From an uncultured Pseudomonadota bacterium (GTDB taxonomy: Bacteria > Pseudomonadota > Gammaproteobacteria > Methylococcales > Methylomonadaceae), in the NCBI GenBank assembly GCA_903876445.1, contig CAIQZX010000045.1:1-43786 (forward strand): 43,786 nucleotides of DNA. The letters run 5' to 3'. Shown one piece after another: positions 30,837-37,169 of the stretch. Within the stretch, counting starts at the first letter, position 1, and each line of letters starts with the position of its first letter. A program made the position numbers and the translations under genes. The notes beneath the pieces are model-generated. The model was not told where the DNA came from, did no database searches, and was given only the letters and a program-made list of their open reading frames with translations.

Positions 30837-33047
30837 ATGAATAAATTTGCAGTTCAAAACAGAACATACTTTTTTAGTAAAAAAAACAAAGTTAGAAAAA
30901 AATATACCGTTACGTCTATAACCTACGCTCTTTGTGGCTTAACACTTTTTGGAACATTACTTTTAAGCATCGTGACATCCCTTCAAGTTGAACGATTTTT
31001 ACATGAACAATTACGCCTTAGAATTTCCGATGTCGTCATGATGATGGCACAAAGAATAGATGGTGATTTGCATGGTCAAATTCATACAATTGACGACACA
31101 AAAAGCGAAGCATTCATTAAGTTGAAAAACGATTTATGGAATATGCGGGAACACGGTACTGAAATCGCTAATGCCTATACTATGCGAAGAAAAGAAAATG
31201 GCGAGTTAGTGTTTATCGTCGATAGTTCAGCAAAAGATCAAAATGCGATTGGTGATGTTTATCCTGCTGAATTCACCACCGAAACACTCGTTAAAGCCAT
31301 GAATGCTACACCAGAAACACTTGTAAACTATTACGTTGAACCTGAAATTGATAGTGACAGCTGGGGAACATGGTTATCAGCTTACGCGCCGATTATGACA
31401 AAAGATGGAAAACTTGACGGTATTGTTGGCGTTGATATTTCTGCAGATAGCATTCAGAAACAAAAACTTGAATGTATTTTTACTATTTTTTTAGCAGCTA
31501 TTGTTATCTTTCTTATTACATTGCCTTTTTTATTTCGGTTAATGAATTTTATTCGCGCCATGACGTTAGAATTAGAACAGTCGAATCATGATTTTCGCGT
31601 TTTATTGGATAATTCCGGCGAAGGTTTTTTATCTTTTGGCAGAAATCTAATAATTGAAAATCAATACAGTAAGGCTTGTGAAACCATGTTAGGCGAATCA
31701 CCTGCTGGAAAAGAAGTAACAACGGTCTTTTTTCGTGACGATAAAACGAAAATTGATTTATTCCATTCCATTATTGCCTCGGTATTAGAAGAAAAAGATG
31801 AGTTTGTATTGGAAAATATGCTGTCGTTATTACCAACAGAAATTCAACATGAAGGAAGAGTTTTAAAAACTGAATATAAACTTGTTCAATCTCAAAAATT
31901 TATCGTCGTTTTAAAAGATATTACTCAAGAGCGGCACGTTACGGAAATGTTAAACAAAGAGCGTCTACAGCTTCAATTGATTGTTGTTGCCGTATCTGAT
32001 AATCGTAATTTTTTTGATGTTGTGAATGCGTTTCGGGAGCTATTAACACAAATACCCAAAATGCTAAATTCAACACTAGCACCTCACACAATCGTTAAAG
32101 AGCTTTATCTTGAAATTCATACGCTGAAAGGAATGCTAAATCAATTCAGTTTTCCAAATACGCCGAAAATCTTACATGAAATAGAAAGTGATTTATCTGA
32201 ATTACGTTTACTTGACGATGCTGAAACTACGACTAAAAAAATCGCAACACATATTTCAGTAAAAGCCTTACAAATCGCTTTTGATAAAGATATTGCTATT
32301 ATTACCGATAAGTTAGGCGTTAATTTCATGGCAAATGGTGAAAATATCGTATTGACTTATTATCAGGCTCGAAAACTCGAAAAACTGGCCACACAACTCT
32401 TACGCGGTGAATCAATTGATGTTTCCGTAGAAAATATCCGCAATCTTCTGGAAGAAATTAGTAAATTACGCCAAGTAACGTTTGAAGACGTGCTACTTGG
32501 TTTTGATAGTCTAGTGCAAAAAACGGCAGAAAGAATGGAAAAAGAAGTCGCACCACTTATCGTAAAAGGTGGTTCTGATATTTGGATTGATCCACACGCT
32601 TATCAGTCATTCTTACGTTCGTTAGCGCATATTTTTCGTAATTCCGTGGCGCATGGAATTGAGTCTCCAGAAACACGCTGGGAATTAGAAAAATATGAAG
32701 TTGGTAGAATTACTTGCTATGTAGACGTAGTTGATAACCAAATTCAATTAACCATTTCGGATGATGGCGCGGGTATCAATCTTAATGCGTTGCGTAAAAA
32801 AGTTGTAAATAATGGACTGTACACTACCGAGGAAGTGAGTAAATTTTCTGATGACGACGTAACAGAATTTATTTTCATGGATAATATCAGTACACTAGAT
32901 GACGTGACAGACATAGCCGGAAGAGGCGTTGGACTTGCGGCAGTGAAGAATGAAGTTAAAAACATGGGTGGTCAAATAGTTGTCAAGACAATTGCTAAAA
33001 AAGGAACTCAGTTTATTTTCACTTTGCCATTACCTGAAAAATTTTAA
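30837..33047 (+). CDS. Membrane CheA-like hybrid sensor: periplasmic domain, PAS-like, Hpt and HATPase
   Basis: A 736-residue sensor kinase. It has TM1 at about residues 27-50, an extracytoplasmic sensor of about 160 residues, TM2 at about 212-236, a PAS-like domain at about 250-370, and an Hpt domain with phospho-acceptor His428 in EIHTLKGML. A CheA-type catalytic ATPase follows at about 580-734, with the N-box around Asn602 (HIFRNSVAHGIE), DDGAGIN and GRGVGLAAV. Unlike CheA, the Hpt is internal and there is no CheW-like domain, so coupling to receptors is not expected; the protein senses by itself. The sensor domain is a close paralogue of the one in the cyclase encoded at 34037-35749. It is first in a cluster with CheX-like and CheY-like genes. 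Confidence 0.88.
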   Translation: MNKFAVQNRTYFFSKKNKVRKKYTVTSITYALCGLTLFGTLLLSIVTSLQVERFLHEQLRLRISDVVMMMAQRIDGDLHGQIHTIDDTKSEAFIKLKNDLWNMREHGTEIANAYTMRRKENGELVFIVDSSAKDQNAIGDVYPAEFTTETLVKAMNATPETLVNYYVEPEIDSDSWGTWLSAYAPIMTKDGKLDGIVGVDISADSIQKQKLECIFTIFLAAIVIFLITLPFLFRLMNFIRAMTLELEQSNHDFRVLLDNSGEGFLSFGRNLIIENQYSKACETMLGESPAGKEVTTVFFRDDKTKIDLFHSIIASVLEEKDEFVLENMLSLLPTEIQHEGRVLKTEYKLVQSQKFIVVLKDITQERHVTEMLNKERLQLQLIVVAVSDNRNFFDVVNAFRELLTQIPKMLNSTLAPHTIVKELYLEIHTLKGMLNQFSFPNTPKILHEIESDLSELRLLDDAETTTKKIATHISVKALQIAFDKDIAIITDKLGVNFMANGENIVLTYYQARKLEKLATQLLRGESIDVSVENIRNLLEEISKLRQVTFEDVLLGFDSLVQKTAERMEKEVAPLIVKGGSDIWIDPHAYQSFLRSLAHIFRNSVAHGIESPETRWELEKYEVGRITCYVDVVDNQIQLTISDDGAGINLNALRKKVVNNGLYTTEEVSKFSDDDVTEFIFMDNISTLDDVTDIAGRGVGLAAVKNEVKNMGGQIVVKTIAKKGTQFIFTLPLPEKF

Positions 33048-33059
33048 GCTGGAACGAAA

Positions 33060-33572
33060 ATGATTATTGATGTAATGGAATCTGTTACAAAAAGAACTTG
33101 CACCTATCTCGAAAGTGAGTTCAAAATTAACGCAATCAAAAATAACAGTGAAAGTGGGAAATTGGAATCGATTGCGTTACTAGATATGACAACGTTAATT
33201 GTAGTGAGTACTGCAAACGTTAATTTGTTGGTTATTTTCAGCTTTGAGAAACCCTTAATTAACTGGATTTTTCATGAAATGACAGATGGCTTGGGCATTA
33301 AAGATTATGAGATTGATCGATACCGAAAGGCTGCGGCAGGTGACGTTATTAACACTGTTTTGGGCAATTCAACAATAGATTTAGAAGGTTCGGAAAAAAA
33401 AGAAATTCATATTACGCCGCAGAAAATTTTGGATAATGTAAAAACAATTCAAGAAATGGGATATAGCATGTTTTACGCGCAGCATTTAGATACACCATTA
33501 GGTAAAATGACGATTTTTTTCGTCGGTTCGGACGAACTTTTTAGTAAAAATTTTTGTGTGGTAAATTGGTAA
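33060..33572 (+). CDS. CheX-like chemotaxis-phosphatase family protein
   Basis: A 170-residue single-domain protein resembling the CheX/CheC family, which dephosphorylates CheY-type receivers. The family helix motif is recognisable as AAAGDVINTVLGNSTIDL, followed by the ITPQKIL strand start. The canonical E-x-x-N spacing is not exact here: Asp-x-x-Asn appears instead of Glu-x-x-Asn, so catalytic activity is uncertain. It lies 13 bases after the kinase gene and four bases before the response regulator gene, which strongly suggests it acts on that regulator. It could also be a CheX-fold adaptor. Confidence 0.72.
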   Translation: MIIDVMESVTKRTCTYLESEFKINAIKNNSESGKLESIALLDMTTLIVVSTANVNLLVIFSFEKPLINWIFHEMTDGLGIKDYEIDRYRKAAAGDVINTVLGNSTIDLEGSEKKEIHITPQKILDNVKTIQEMGYSMFYAQHLDTPLGKMTIFFVGSDELFSKNFCVVNW

Positions 33573-33576
33573 TACA

Positions 33577-33990
33577 ATGGATAATTCAGATGTTTTAAAA
33601 GTTATGGTGGTAGATGATTCACCGATTATAGTAAAAAAATTAACTGTCCTTTTAGAAACATTAGGTTATAAAGTTATTCAATCCGCTGAAAATGGTAAAG
33701 ATGCTGTTGAGATTTATAAACGTTTACAGTTAATAGATTTTAAGCCTGACGTGATAACGATGGATATTACGATGCCGGAAATGGATGGGATTGAAGCAAC
33801 ACGAACTATAATGAACGAATTTCCCGATACAAAAATTGTAATGGTTACATCGCATGGACAAGAAGCAATGGTATTAAACGCACTAAAAGCAGGTGCAAAA
33901 GGTTATGTGTTAAAACCTTTTGACCAGCAAAAGGTCTATGAAACCATCCAAAAAGCGTGTAAAAGAAAAGTTCAATTACAATTTGGTTGA
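33577..33990 (+). CDS. CheY-like single-domain response regulator
   Basis: A 137-residue receiver domain only. The acidic pocket is Asp13-Asp14 (VVDDSP), the phospho-acceptor is Asp63 in ITMDITMPEMDG, and the conserved Thr/Ser (MVTSHG) and Lys (VLKPFD) are present. There is no DNA-binding or enzymatic output domain, so it must act by protein contact, as CheY does, or as a shuttle in a phosphorelay. The likely donor is His428 of the kinase encoded two genes upstream, and the likely phosphatase is the CheX-like protein. Its output target is unknown; the adjacent cyclase is a candidate. Confidence 0.92.
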   Translation: MDNSDVLKVMVVDDSPIIVKKLTVLLETLGYKVIQSAENGKDAVEIYKRLQLIDFKPDVITMDITMPEMDGIEATRTIMNEFPDTKIVMVTSHGQEAMVLNALKAGAKGYVLKPFDQQKVYETIQKACKRKVQLQFG

Positions 33991-34036
33991 TGGTTTTTTT
34001 GTAACAATTTTTTGATATTCCTTTAAGAGAGGCGCG

Positions 34037-35749
34037 ATGAAAAATCTTAGTGAAAATGAAAATAAAAAAATGCCTAGAAAATACACACTTAAATTTACGT
34101 TAATTTCAGCATTTTGCGGATTGTCGTTATTTGGAGCTGTAATTTTAACGGTCGTAACGTTGTACGAATCGAACAGTTTTATTCGAGAACAATTACGACT
34201 TCGGCTTACAGATGTAATCAGTACGATGGCATACCAAATTGATGGTGATCTTCACAGCCAAATAAAAACGGTTGCCGACGAAAAAGGCGAGCCGTTTCTT
34301 AAATTGAAAAGTGATTTGCAAACCATGCGTCACCGTGGAACAGGTATTACGAATGCGTATACACTACGAAAATTAGATAATGGCGACATCATCTTAGTCG
34401 TCGATGGCTCGAAAGAAATTAAAAATGTCACGGGTGATGTTTACCCGCCGAAAGCGGTAACTCAAACGCTTTTGAATACATTTAATGCTACAAAAGAAAA
34501 TCAATTCGGGACAATCTACACAGAACCTGAAATTTATGAAAATCCTCAAGGTGTTTGGTTATCCGCTTATGCGCCAATTTTCACAACAGATGGGAAACTT
34601 GATGGTGTTGTAGCTATTGACGTGTCTGCTGAAAGCATACGAGATCATGAATTAGAATATATTATAATGATGGTTTCTGTGTCAGTTGCAGTGATGCTTT
34701 TCATACTACCTTTAGCGTTTGTGACGGCGAATCGAATTCGTCTTCCTTTGGCGCAATTAACTTCTGAAATGGAAAAAATTGGGAAGTTCGAGCTAGAAAG
34801 TAAAGTGGATATTGTTTCGCGTGTTAGCGAAATCAACAGTATGAGTCACCAGCTTGAAGGTATGAAAAAAGGACTTCGTTCCTTCAAAAAATATGTTCCT
34901 GCTACGTTAGTACAAGAATTGATTCAGCTAGGTTCGGACGCGCAATTAGGTGGCGAGAAAAAGGATTTAACGATTTTCTTTTCCGATATAGCTAATTTCA
35001 CAGGAATTTCTGAAAAACTAGATCCAGAAAGATTAGTGGGTTTCTTAGGTGAATATCTCGACGTGATGAATGTTAGCTTGTTGAAAAATCAAGCGACAGT
35101 AGATAAATACATCGGTGATGCGGTGATGGCATTTTGGGGCGCACCTCGGAATGTTGAAAATATGGCGATTAGAAGTTGTTATGCCGCGCTAGAATGTCAA
35201 CGAAATGTTCAACTTCTTGGTCAAAAATGGAAAGCGGAAGGCTTAGATTTCGATTTCTATACTCGAATTGGTATTCATACCGGTGAAGTGATTGTTGGAA
35301 ATATCGGTTCTGATACCCGAATGAACTACACCGTTATTGGTGATAATGTGAATTTGGCAAGCCGTATTGAATCAATCAATAAATTTTATGGCACCGCAAC
35401 GTTAATAAGTGAATCTACCTATCTTCAAGCAAAAAGTGAAGGCTTCGTAACGCGCTTAGTTGACCGCGCTGTTTTAGTTGGCAAAGCAACCCCCGTTAGA
35501 CTTTATGAATTAGTTGGAATTAAGGGCGAAGTTGATGATAAAAAGTTGAAGCAGATTGAACTTTATGAAAACGCTTTTGATTTGTACAGCCAAAAACAAT
35601 TTGCTGAAGCGATTGTTTTACTTGAACAGTTAACATCAGAATCACCTTCAAATCTTGCAGCGACGAAATTACTTGATCGTTGCCAACGTTACATCGTCAC
35701 ACCACCTGCCGATAATTGGCAAGGTGAATACGTTTTAGCGAGTAAATAA
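34037..35749 (+). CDS. Membrane class III adenylate cyclase with periplasmic sensor
   Basis: A 570-residue sensor cyclase. It has TM1 at about residues 18-42, an extracytoplasmic sensor at 43-205, TM2 at about 208-230, a HAMP-like segment at about 230-285, and the cyclase domain at about 300-480. Metal-binding Asp317 (FFSDIANFT) and Asp361 (DKYIGDAVMAFWG) are present. Lys357 and the Thr of YTVIGDNVNLASR are the adenine-specifying positions, so cAMP is expected over cGMP; the transition-state Asn and Arg follow in NLASR. The C-terminal 70 residues look like a TPR-type helix pair (QKQFAEAIVLLEQL). GAGAGG lies ahead of the ATG. The sensor half is paralogous to that of the upstream kinase. Confidence 0.92.
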   Translation: MKNLSENENKKMPRKYTLKFTLISAFCGLSLFGAVILTVVTLYESNSFIREQLRLRLTDVISTMAYQIDGDLHSQIKTVADEKGEPFLKLKSDLQTMRHRGTGITNAYTLRKLDNGDIILVVDGSKEIKNVTGDVYPPKAVTQTLLNTFNATKENQFGTIYTEPEIYENPQGVWLSAYAPIFTTDGKLDGVVAIDVSAESIRDHELEYIIMMVSVSVAVMLFILPLAFVTANRIRLPLAQLTSEMEKIGKFELESKVDIVSRVSEINSMSHQLEGMKKGLRSFKKYVPATLVQELIQLGSDAQLGGEKKDLTIFFSDIANFTGISEKLDPERLVGFLGEYLDVMNVSLLKNQATVDKYIGDAVMAFWGAPRNVENMAIRSCYAALECQRNVQLLGQKWKAEGLDFDFYTRIGIHTGEVIVGNIGSDTRMNYTVIGDNVNLASRIESINKFYGTATLISESTYLQAKSEGFVTRLVDRAVLVGKATPVRLYELVGIKGEVDDKKLKQIELYENAFDLYSQKQFAEAIVLLEQLTSESPSNLAATKLLDRCQRYIVTPPADNWQGEYVLASK

Positions 35750-35795: not shown

Positions 35796-37169
35796 TTAAA
35801 ATTCATACGCTGCCGAAATCATTCCTTGAAGCCACATTTTATTCCCTCCTAAGTATTCTTTTCCGGCTGTATTTGGTAAAAAGGCTTCTAAGCCAATCGA
35901 AATATCTAACGCATCATTCAATTTCCAATCCGTTAATAAATTAACTTCATTGCCATAATTTGCAGACGACAACTCAAATACAGATGGATTTACAAAAGTG
36001 TAATTGAAGTAAATTAAATTTACTGTCACGCTTTCTTTGGGTGTCAGAATCAATCTGCCAACATGAGTAATTAAATTTGAATTATCCAGTATCCATTCGC
36101 CGTTAATTTCCCCTTGAAACCATGTTCCCCAAGTCGAAAAGCCCGGTGACATTCCATCAAATCCTTCTTCTTGAATCGCATAACGATAACTGATGGTGGG
36201 TTGCCAAATTAAATCTTCCCGTTTGTATTCAATTTGCCCAAACCCGCCAGAAGCCTGATTTTTTATTTTATTCGTCGAATTTATTTGATAAACATATTCG
36301 GTACTCATCGTAAAATTTTCCAAGGGTACAAATTCAAATCGCGCATTAAAAGCGTCATTATTGATTACCTGTTTATCCAATACATCAAACGAGCCATCGT
36401 CGTGTAAAAAACGTTTACTGTTTGTATTGATATAACTCAAACCCAAACTCGTATTTTCAGAATATGTGTATTCAACGTTCACGCCTTGATAACGTTTTTT
36501 ATCCGCTGGATTTAGTGGACGGGTTTCTAAATAAAATCCTTCCAACTTTATCAATTCAAAATTCAAACGACCGAGTAATGTATTATTAAAAGCAGTGCGT
36601 GGATTTATCCAACCCGCGCCACGATTACCGCCATTTTCTGCGCCATAATTCAACAAAAATCCCGAACCCAATTTGTAATTTTGTTTACCAGCAGATAAAT
36701 CGACAGTAATTTTTTCTTCTGCATCGAATAATTCCCCCGATTTCCAACCTAAAAAAAGCTCTTCGGTTTTATTTTTGTAACGATAATTATCGTAACGTCC
36801 GAACACAATGAAATCATTTTCTTGCTGGTACATTTCAACGCCTTTTTGGGTATAACCAGAAGGATCGTGACCTAGTGTACTGCTGTAAACATAACTAAAT
36901 CCGCCATAAAATTTGCTTTCAAGTGGCAAATTTATAAATCCGTTAAATTGTGGTTTGACGCTCATTTCCCAAAAAAAATCACTGAGATTAGCTTTCGCCA
37001 TTGAACCTGCTTGATTATTCATTTCAGAGAAAGCCGCATTTTGAAATTGTAAGCCGGCAAACAAAGAACAGCGTTCGCCGTCATAAATTTGATATTCGGC
37101 GAAAACAACATTTGACAAAGTAATTGCCAAAATACTGGGATAAATTTGATATATAACGCTCTTTTTCAT
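35796..37169 (-). CDS. Outer-membrane porin-like beta-barrel protein (alginate-export/porin type)
   Basis: A 457-residue protein with a signal peptide (residues about 1-24, ending VVFA) and many alternating-hydrophobic strands rich in Tyr, Trp, Asn and Gly. It ends SAAYEF, a typical outer-membrane barrel C-terminus with terminal Phe. The overall pattern, including the final block VNLLTDWKLNDALDISIGLE, resembles alginate-export/OprB-like barrels, but I cannot fix the family or the substrate. It is monocistronic and convergent with the cyclase. Its location next to a cAMP signalling cluster could be chance. Confidence 0.7.
   Translation of the reverse strand: MKKSVIYQIYPSILAITLSNVVFAEYQIYDGERCSLFAGLQFQNAAFSEMNNQAGSMAKANLSDFFWEMSVKPQFNGFINLPLESKFYGGFSYVYSSTLGHDPSGYTQKGVEMYQQENDFIVFGRYDNYRYKNKTEELFLGWKSGELFDAEEKITVDLSAGKQNYKLGSGFLLNYGAENGGNRGAGWINPRTAFNNTLLGRLNFELIKLEGFYLETRPLNPADKKRYQGVNVEYTYSENTSLGLSYINTNSKRFLHDDGSFDVLDKQVINNDAFNARFEFVPLENFTMSTEYVYQINSTNKIKNQASGGFGQIEYKREDLIWQPTISYRYAIQEEGFDGMSPGFSTWGTWFQGEINGEWILDNSNLITHVGRLILTPKESVTVNLIYFNYTFVNPSVFELSSANYGNEVNLLTDWKLNDALDISIGLEAFLPNTAGKEYLGGNKMWLQGMISAAYEF

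Follow-up and report, generated by a model that had tools for sequence, protein, structure and literature searches.

A CheA-like kinase–CheX–receiver cassette next to an adenylate cyclase with the same type of predicted sensor in a Methylomonadaceae genome

We analyzed a 43,786-nucleotide stretch of DNA from an uncultured bacterium of the Methylomonadaceae, a relative of methane oxidizers (contig CAIQZX010000045.1 of the metagenome-assembled genome (MAG) GCA_903876445.1), which is called the window below. Positions 30837–35749 are filled by four open reading frames (ORFs) on the same strand, separated by 12, 4, and 46 bases. They encode a CheA-like sensor kinase (KIN), a CheX-family phosphatase (CHEX), a stand-alone CheY-like receiver (REC), and a class III adenylate cyclase (CYC). 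Sequence comparison across genomes leaves KIN–CHEX–REC well supported as a three-gene unit, to which CYC appears to be joined by its position and its sensor, not by conservation. The most likely explanation, ranked ahead of separate neighbors in second place and direct control of CYC by REC in third, is that one signal has two outputs. The sensor type shared by KIN and CYC would feed a phosphorelay and a cyclic AMP (cAMP) branch, and we give this arrangement an even chance of being correct. The original prediction for this DNA placed the four genes exactly, with mostly correct annotation. It overlooked three things: the sensor shared by KIN and CYC, the porin-like neighbor, and the occurrence of the three-gene cassette in several phyla.

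KIN (30837–33047, plus strand, 736 amino acids) has two membrane helices around its sensor domain (about residues 50–212, at 30987–31472). Its Hpt match lies under the Pfam cut-off (18.1 vs 24.6 bits), and the putative phosphorylated histidine is His428, within EIHTLKG. A membrane sensor and an internal Hpt are thus both present, as had been proposed. The HATPase_c match spans residues 595–733 (E = 2.7e-13), with CheA-type ATPase motifs at 599–609, 642–648, and 695–700. Among the NCBIfam models, those of CheA matched the ATPase part best (5.9e-41), yet far under their cut-offs; a weak DpiB/CitA match lies around the second membrane helix. The region of about 250–370 reads by eye as PAS-like, with no Pfam match. 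The P5 domain is one of the core domains of CheA. In KIN, the CheW-like P5 is missing, since the protein terminates at residue 736, straight after HATPase_c. In the Pfam scan, the four proteins showed no receptor, CheW, CheR, or CheB domain, and the window’s contig gave no CheW match (PF01584). The earlier statement that receptor, CheW, and methylation genes are absent therefore holds for the four proteins and, in the case of CheW, for the contig. It does not extend to the genome, which has CheW matches on three other contigs (C16, C130, and C154).

CHEX (33060–33572, plus strand, 170 amino acids) also falls under its Pfam cut-off (21.7 vs 27 bits for CheX). A ten-row profile compared with the PDB sequences recovered the solved CheX proteins 3hm4, 1squ, 3h4y, and 1xko at 2e-5 to 7e-5, and its best match was 4hyn, a CheC-type fusion (4.4e-6). 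The active-site region of the solved CheX proteins aligns with D95-x-x-N98 of CHEX. The ExxN rule for this motif is given in PMC3510030. In 58 CheX ORFs from the named loci described below, the asparagine of this motif was present in all 58, whereas Glu accounted for 41 of the acidic residues and Asp for 17. CHEX had no match among plasmids and no relative among viral contigs.

REC (33577–33990, plus strand, 137 amino acids) contains Response_reg (E = 1.2e-31) as its sole Pfam match, in keeping with the proposal of a receiver without an output domain. Asp63 sits in TMDITMP, and D13/D14, D63, T91, and K113 are invariant in an alignment of ten rows. A five-residue insertion (residues 51–55, window positions 33727–33741) is missing from the nine aligned relatives.

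CYC (34037–35749, plus strand, 570 amino acids) carries an N-terminal sensor as in KIN, a HAMP match below the Pfam cut-off, and a clear Guanylate_cyc domain (PF00211, 2.7e-22; 79.7 bits vs a cut-off of 21.9). All six catalytic positions expected of class III cyclases are filled (317, 357, 361, 436, 439, and 443). We take Asp317 and Asp361 to be the metal ligands, Lys357 and Asp436 to contact adenine, and Asn439 and Arg443 to serve the transition state. Full-length CYC was found in five of the 18 genomes of the window’s genus, with an additional contig-end fragment in G006. Outside the genus, it was found in two genomes of one other genus (G484 and G546, the latter copy being cut by the contig start).

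The N-termini of KIN and CYC are 47% identical over 237 residues and share one layout: a membrane helix, about 160 periplasmic residues, and a second membrane helix. A model built from 12 sequences (predicted local distance difference test (pLDDT) 75.8) predicts a single-Cache (PDC) fold between the two helices, whose nearest structural matches are WalK (Z = 14.3), CitA (13.7), and DcuS (13.6). The likeness to these Cache sensors is one of predicted fold, whereas the sensor profile gave nothing significant against the PDB sequences, with one match at 0.73. In a tree of 29 sensors, from which a 110-residue fragment of G006 was dropped, the seven CYC sensors of two genera formed a clade with a support of 100/100 that contained none of the 22 kinase sensors. 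The sensor of the window’s KIN falls outside this clade, and on this basis a recent tandem copy was rejected. The two sensors of the window thus look like old paralogues brought together, not like a local copy. The same sensor also sits on HisKA kinases and hybrid kinases in the genus.

The case for the three-gene unit comes from its recurrence. A single-sequence search matched CHEX in ten of the 18 genus genomes and in none of 43 others, and KIN, CHEX, and REC occur together in all nine of the other genus genomes with a CHEX match. Cassettes in further genera of the family came to light with a kinase profile; the absence from the 43 genomes is thus a limit of sensitivity and sampling. A scan of named genome contigs with the PAS–Hpt region of KIN yielded 77 loci, which we assigned by their record titles to Pseudomonadota, Desulfobacterota, Campylobacterota, Clostridium, Spirochaeta, Marinitoga, and others. 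This set is biased, since it was fetched by two peptide patterns; about a dozen loci come from the window’s genus, and others are mutually close. In 57 of the 77 loci, KIN is either fused to CHEX or has it no more than 1.5 kb away. A receiver, for which every receiver-like ORF up to the same distance was counted, accompanies the kinase in 60, and 51 have both. The other 20 loci showed no CheX at this distance, and by our criterion seven of them are at contig ends. Six ORFs were read as KIN–CHEX fusions, with a weak CheX match in four of them (L138, L143, L146, and L147; 2.6e-13 to 8.6e-9), and three as CHEX–REC fusions. This recurrence, together with the fusions, supports the view that the relay is self-contained and lacks receptors. 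Few genomes have the kinase core: in a phylum-wide draw of 398, it occurred in four, the window’s own genome counted. Among the matches listed in a search of the open-access literature, the titles and abstract openings contained no description of a KIN–CHEX–REC cassette.

The gene at 35796–37169 (minus strand, 457 amino acids) is convergent with CYC, and its product (OMP) looks like an outer-membrane porin. Its profile gave one weak, chance-like match against the PDB sequences (9q6n, 0.045). Porin matches were found in 14 genus genomes, and in nine of these the gene directly adjoins one with a KIN/CYC-type sensor. It lies upstream of KIN in seven genomes (G001, G002, G004, G009, G011, G012, and G015) and upstream of a hybrid kinase in G014, the ninth case being the window itself. 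In G008, the porin is convergent with REC at the opposite end of the cassette, and in G016 and G005 no sensor gene lies beside it. In G484, from the other genus, the porin precedes CYC by 12 bases on the same strand. Five genomes that lack an adjacent sensor gene (G005, G459, G540, G471, and G520) have an SDF dicarboxylate symporter with the porin, and an SBP_bac_3 protein was confirmed near the porin in both genomes scanned for it (G459 and G471). These neighbors suggest a dicarboxylate or amino-acid substrate.

Two genomes of the genus point to the modules involved. In G010, the N-terminus of KIN is replaced and no porin match is present, with CHEX and REC kept; G014 retains the porin and the sensor, the latter on a HisKA hybrid kinase, and gave no CHEX match. 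The swaps suggest that the sensor tends to travel with the porin, and CHEX and REC with the Hpt–ATPase core. The swapped N-terminus of the G010 kinase (L018:8318-10324(-)) holds a sub-threshold HisKA-like stretch. Downstream of the hybrid kinase in G014 (L074:4153-5279), a receiver and an HD domain are encoded in two frames that overlap, as if a frameshift had split a single response regulator.

If one signal does serve both outputs, a small ligand would enter through the neighboring porin and be detected by a Cache-type sensor present in two copies, on KIN and on CYC. The ligand is probably a dicarboxylate or an acidic amino acid. In the first branch, the sensor would control the KIN ATPase and thereby phosphorylation of His428 in the internal Hpt. 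The phosphoryl group would pass from His428 to Asp63 of REC, CHEX would hydrolyze phosphorylated REC, and REC would act on a partner through protein contact. In the second branch, the same sensor type would control the catalytic domain of CYC through HAMP, leading to cAMP.

Several points weigh against this explanation. The linkage of KIN and CYC is known from one MAG, which leaves a shared function of the branches unproven. The ligand class is drawn from fold resemblance and porin neighbors. The porin assignment has its own weak points: Alginate_exp (PF13372) matched weakly in two of 11 members of the OMP family (best 1.5e-4) and not in the window’s protein, and the predicted OMP structure reached a pLDDT of only 28.8. 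In G013 and G007 the contig stops at the porin, and in G016 the porin adjoins neither an identified sensor gene nor a symporter. CYC is located elsewhere than the porin in G001, G010, G013, and G016, and outside the window a directly adjacent porin–CYC pair, there on one strand, was seen in one genome (G484). Gene absences in these MAGs may also reflect assembly gaps.

A second possibility is that KIN–CHEX–REC and CYC are separate systems that lie near polA by chance, with REC addressing motility, pili, or cyclic di-GMP proteins. Two relatives are consistent with this. G001 has CYC beside polA and its cassette elsewhere; in G008, three contigs together put the cassette at zwf and the porin at polA, and CYC is missing. 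The gene order of the window resembles a combination of these two. The sensor type is, moreover, common in the genus and not confined to KIN and CYC, as its presence on HisKA and hybrid kinases illustrates. A chance neighborhood is harder to reconcile with the common strand, the 46-base gap, the membership of both sensors in one family, and the porin next to CYC. We consider it unlikely, though it is the strongest of the alternatives.

The original prediction suggested that REC acts by protein contact, perhaps on CYC. In this model, REC, phosphorylated or not, would bind and regulate CYC in a single path from the kinase to cAMP, and CYC would take the place held by a diguanylate cyclase in some related cassettes. 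CYC is indeed the fourth gene on the same strand, and the terminator scan lists no terminator-like site in the 46 bases between it and REC. Among the 77 named loci, 68 of which have a downstream neighbor in view, the cassette is directly followed in 13 by a same-strand gene for a GGDEF protein of 300–322 amino acids; in one of the 13 (L089), this gene stands after KIN and before CHEX. This frequency (13 of 68 next genes) compares with 11 of 698 other ORFs (Fisher’s exact test, 8e-9, a value that overstates the independence of the loci); the background ORFs come from the 77 loci and six more, 83 in all. An alignment of 17 such proteins (the 13 and those of L121, L137, L138, and L180) showed a PAS-like N-terminus with PCxxC, named PAS-Cys here, in 16 and the RxxD inhibitory site in all 17. 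A gene with this N-terminus lies within 2.6 kb of KIN in 23 of the 77 loci, joined to GGDEF in 20 and to histidine-kinase domains in three. A nucleotide cyclase therefore recurs as a partner of the cassette, and in the window this position is taken by a cyclase of another kind. The PAS-Cys profile found nothing in the 18 genus genomes, so the cyclase position there is free; a diguanylate cyclase of this kind elsewhere in the genus was accordingly rejected as a candidate. The genus GGDEF matches listed align mainly from about model position 115, and a few from 61–92. A functional precedent would be the control of CyaB by Pil-Chp in Pseudomonas.

The distribution of CYC speaks against direct control by REC. 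CYC directly follows the cassette in one of the ten genus loci with CheX, and although five genomes were seen to have CYC as well as the kinase core (G000, G001, G010, G484, and G546), the two are linked in the window alone. It occurs without a CHEX match in G013 and G016 and brings its own sensor, and the PAS-Cys domain of the cassette-linked diguanylate cyclases has no match in CYC or anywhere in the window. A class III cyclase was found in just one of the 77 named loci (L151), as the second gene after the kinase, on a contig that begins inside the kinase and shows neither CheX nor a receiver. We therefore rejected CYC as a conserved member of the unit: the four-gene order ending in an adenylate cyclase, which the original prediction had put forward for a search in other genomes, is not conserved. 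Its notion that the receiver signals to a cyclase survives in general form, through the diguanylate cyclases, and not for this adenylate cyclase. Even in that form, the phylum draw is unfavorable to a cassette–cyclase pairing, as PAS-Cys occurred in 13 of the 398 genomes and the kinase core in four, with no overlap. Three of the 13 were inspected and had PAS-Cys on a small diguanylate cyclase, with no kinase core or CheX detected in 14 kb. A pathway from the kinase to cAMP is possible, not established, and direct contact between REC and CYC seems to us improbable.

A broader proposal, which we hold to be doubtful, is that the cassettes form a scattered, multi-phylum, and apparently undescribed class of receptor-less chemotaxis-type relays, built from a sensor–PAS–Hpt–ATPase kinase, a CheX phosphatase, and a lone receiver, in which REC drives a cyclase by contact, namely a PAS-Cys diguanylate cyclase in many relatives or, here, a class III enzyme that bears the sensor type of the kinase. 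If it is true, cAMP in the window’s lineage would be set by the coincidence of ligand and phosphorelay. An error of assembly at the KIN-to-CYC junction, prompted by a single genome in 223 contigs, is hardly credible, since the zwf and polA flanks match the G008 site, G001 has CYC at polA, and the neighborhood is as the relatives predict.

Two observations on the cyclases stand apart from these comparisons. The locus L151:2-6348, from a Campylobacteraceae MAG, contains a kinase core, then a protein with an HD-GYP-type match, and then a class III cyclase of 717 amino acids; MBL-GAF and CHASE2-like parts were read in it by eye. Diguanylate cyclases with a PAS-like domain and a nearly invariant PCxxC were seen beside the cassette (L180:2390-3307(-) and L149:12324-13244, among others), and in G083, G146, and G186 they stand alone. 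Metal binding or redox sensing may be the role of the cysteines.

With chemotaxis CheA–CheY–CheX, the cassette shares the Hpt histidine, the CheA-type ATPase, the CheY-like receiver, and the CheX-family [DE]xxN motif. KIN differs from chemotaxis CheA in its built-in membrane sensor and in the missing CheW-like P5, and the four proteins come without a receptor, CheW, CheR, or CheB. Pil-Chp of Pseudomonas aeruginosa comprises a receptor, CheW-like proteins, and the multi-Hpt kinase ChpA, and is associated with CyaB. The likeness lies in the pairing of a chemotaxis-type relay with a class III adenylate cyclase; in the window, the link is one of gene position in one genome. Close counterparts are the KIN–CHEX–REC–diguanylate cyclase loci of Magnetospirillum, Spirochaeta, Desulfohalobiaceae, Methylococcaceae NSP1-2, and others, which have the same kinase core, CheX, and receiver. 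Their fourth gene encodes a PAS-Cys GGDEF protein, whereas that of the window encodes an adenylate cyclase with its own sensor. The CheA–CheC/CheX fusions of Leptospirae, as described in PMC10782961, combine the kinase and a CheX-type phosphatase in one protein, like the six fused ORFs among the 77 loci. According to that source, they are F1-class CheAs of chemosensory systems, whereas the cassette kinases carry their own sensors.

A lone receiver with a dedicated CheX and a self-sensing CheA-like kinase would represent a third use of chemotaxis parts, distinct from receptor arrays and from ordinary two-component pairs. The recurrent diguanylate cyclase neighbor makes the role of such output-less receivers testable, the question being whether phosphorylated REC acts as a nucleotide cyclase switch. 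The genus, in turn, shows modules being rebuilt, the sensor tending to move with the porin, and CheX and the receiver with the Hpt–ATPase core.

The N-terminal domains of the kinases vary among the named loci. Of 68 kinases, 55 were scanned, after ten that carry the genus sensor and three that were short had been set aside. In these 55, we found PAS, GAF, protein-kinase/AAA, SBP_bac_3, CHASE4, NMT1, and Cache domains. AAA_16 matched in seven and Pkinase in six of the 55, counted across the whole set and not by locus, so that some kinase cores carry a Ser/Thr-kinase and AAA front end. Kinase-core proteins of about 1,680–2,130 amino acids were seen, mostly in Rhodospirillaceae (L104, L106, L110, L111, L115, L116, L119, and L131). 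In Deltaproteobacteria, the kinase follows genes of [NiFe]-hydrogenase subunits (L121:4444-11183; L120, L123–L126, L152, and L157), to which a count of upstream genes, taken from 33 of 55 listed and used solely for this purpose, had pointed. The order in L121 is PAS-Cys diguanylate cyclase, hydrogenase large subunit, small subunit, KIN, CHEX, and REC, with gaps below 50 bases, and a more distant hydrogenase pair adjoins KIN in L089. The hydrogenase-linked cassette may be an H2-sensing version.

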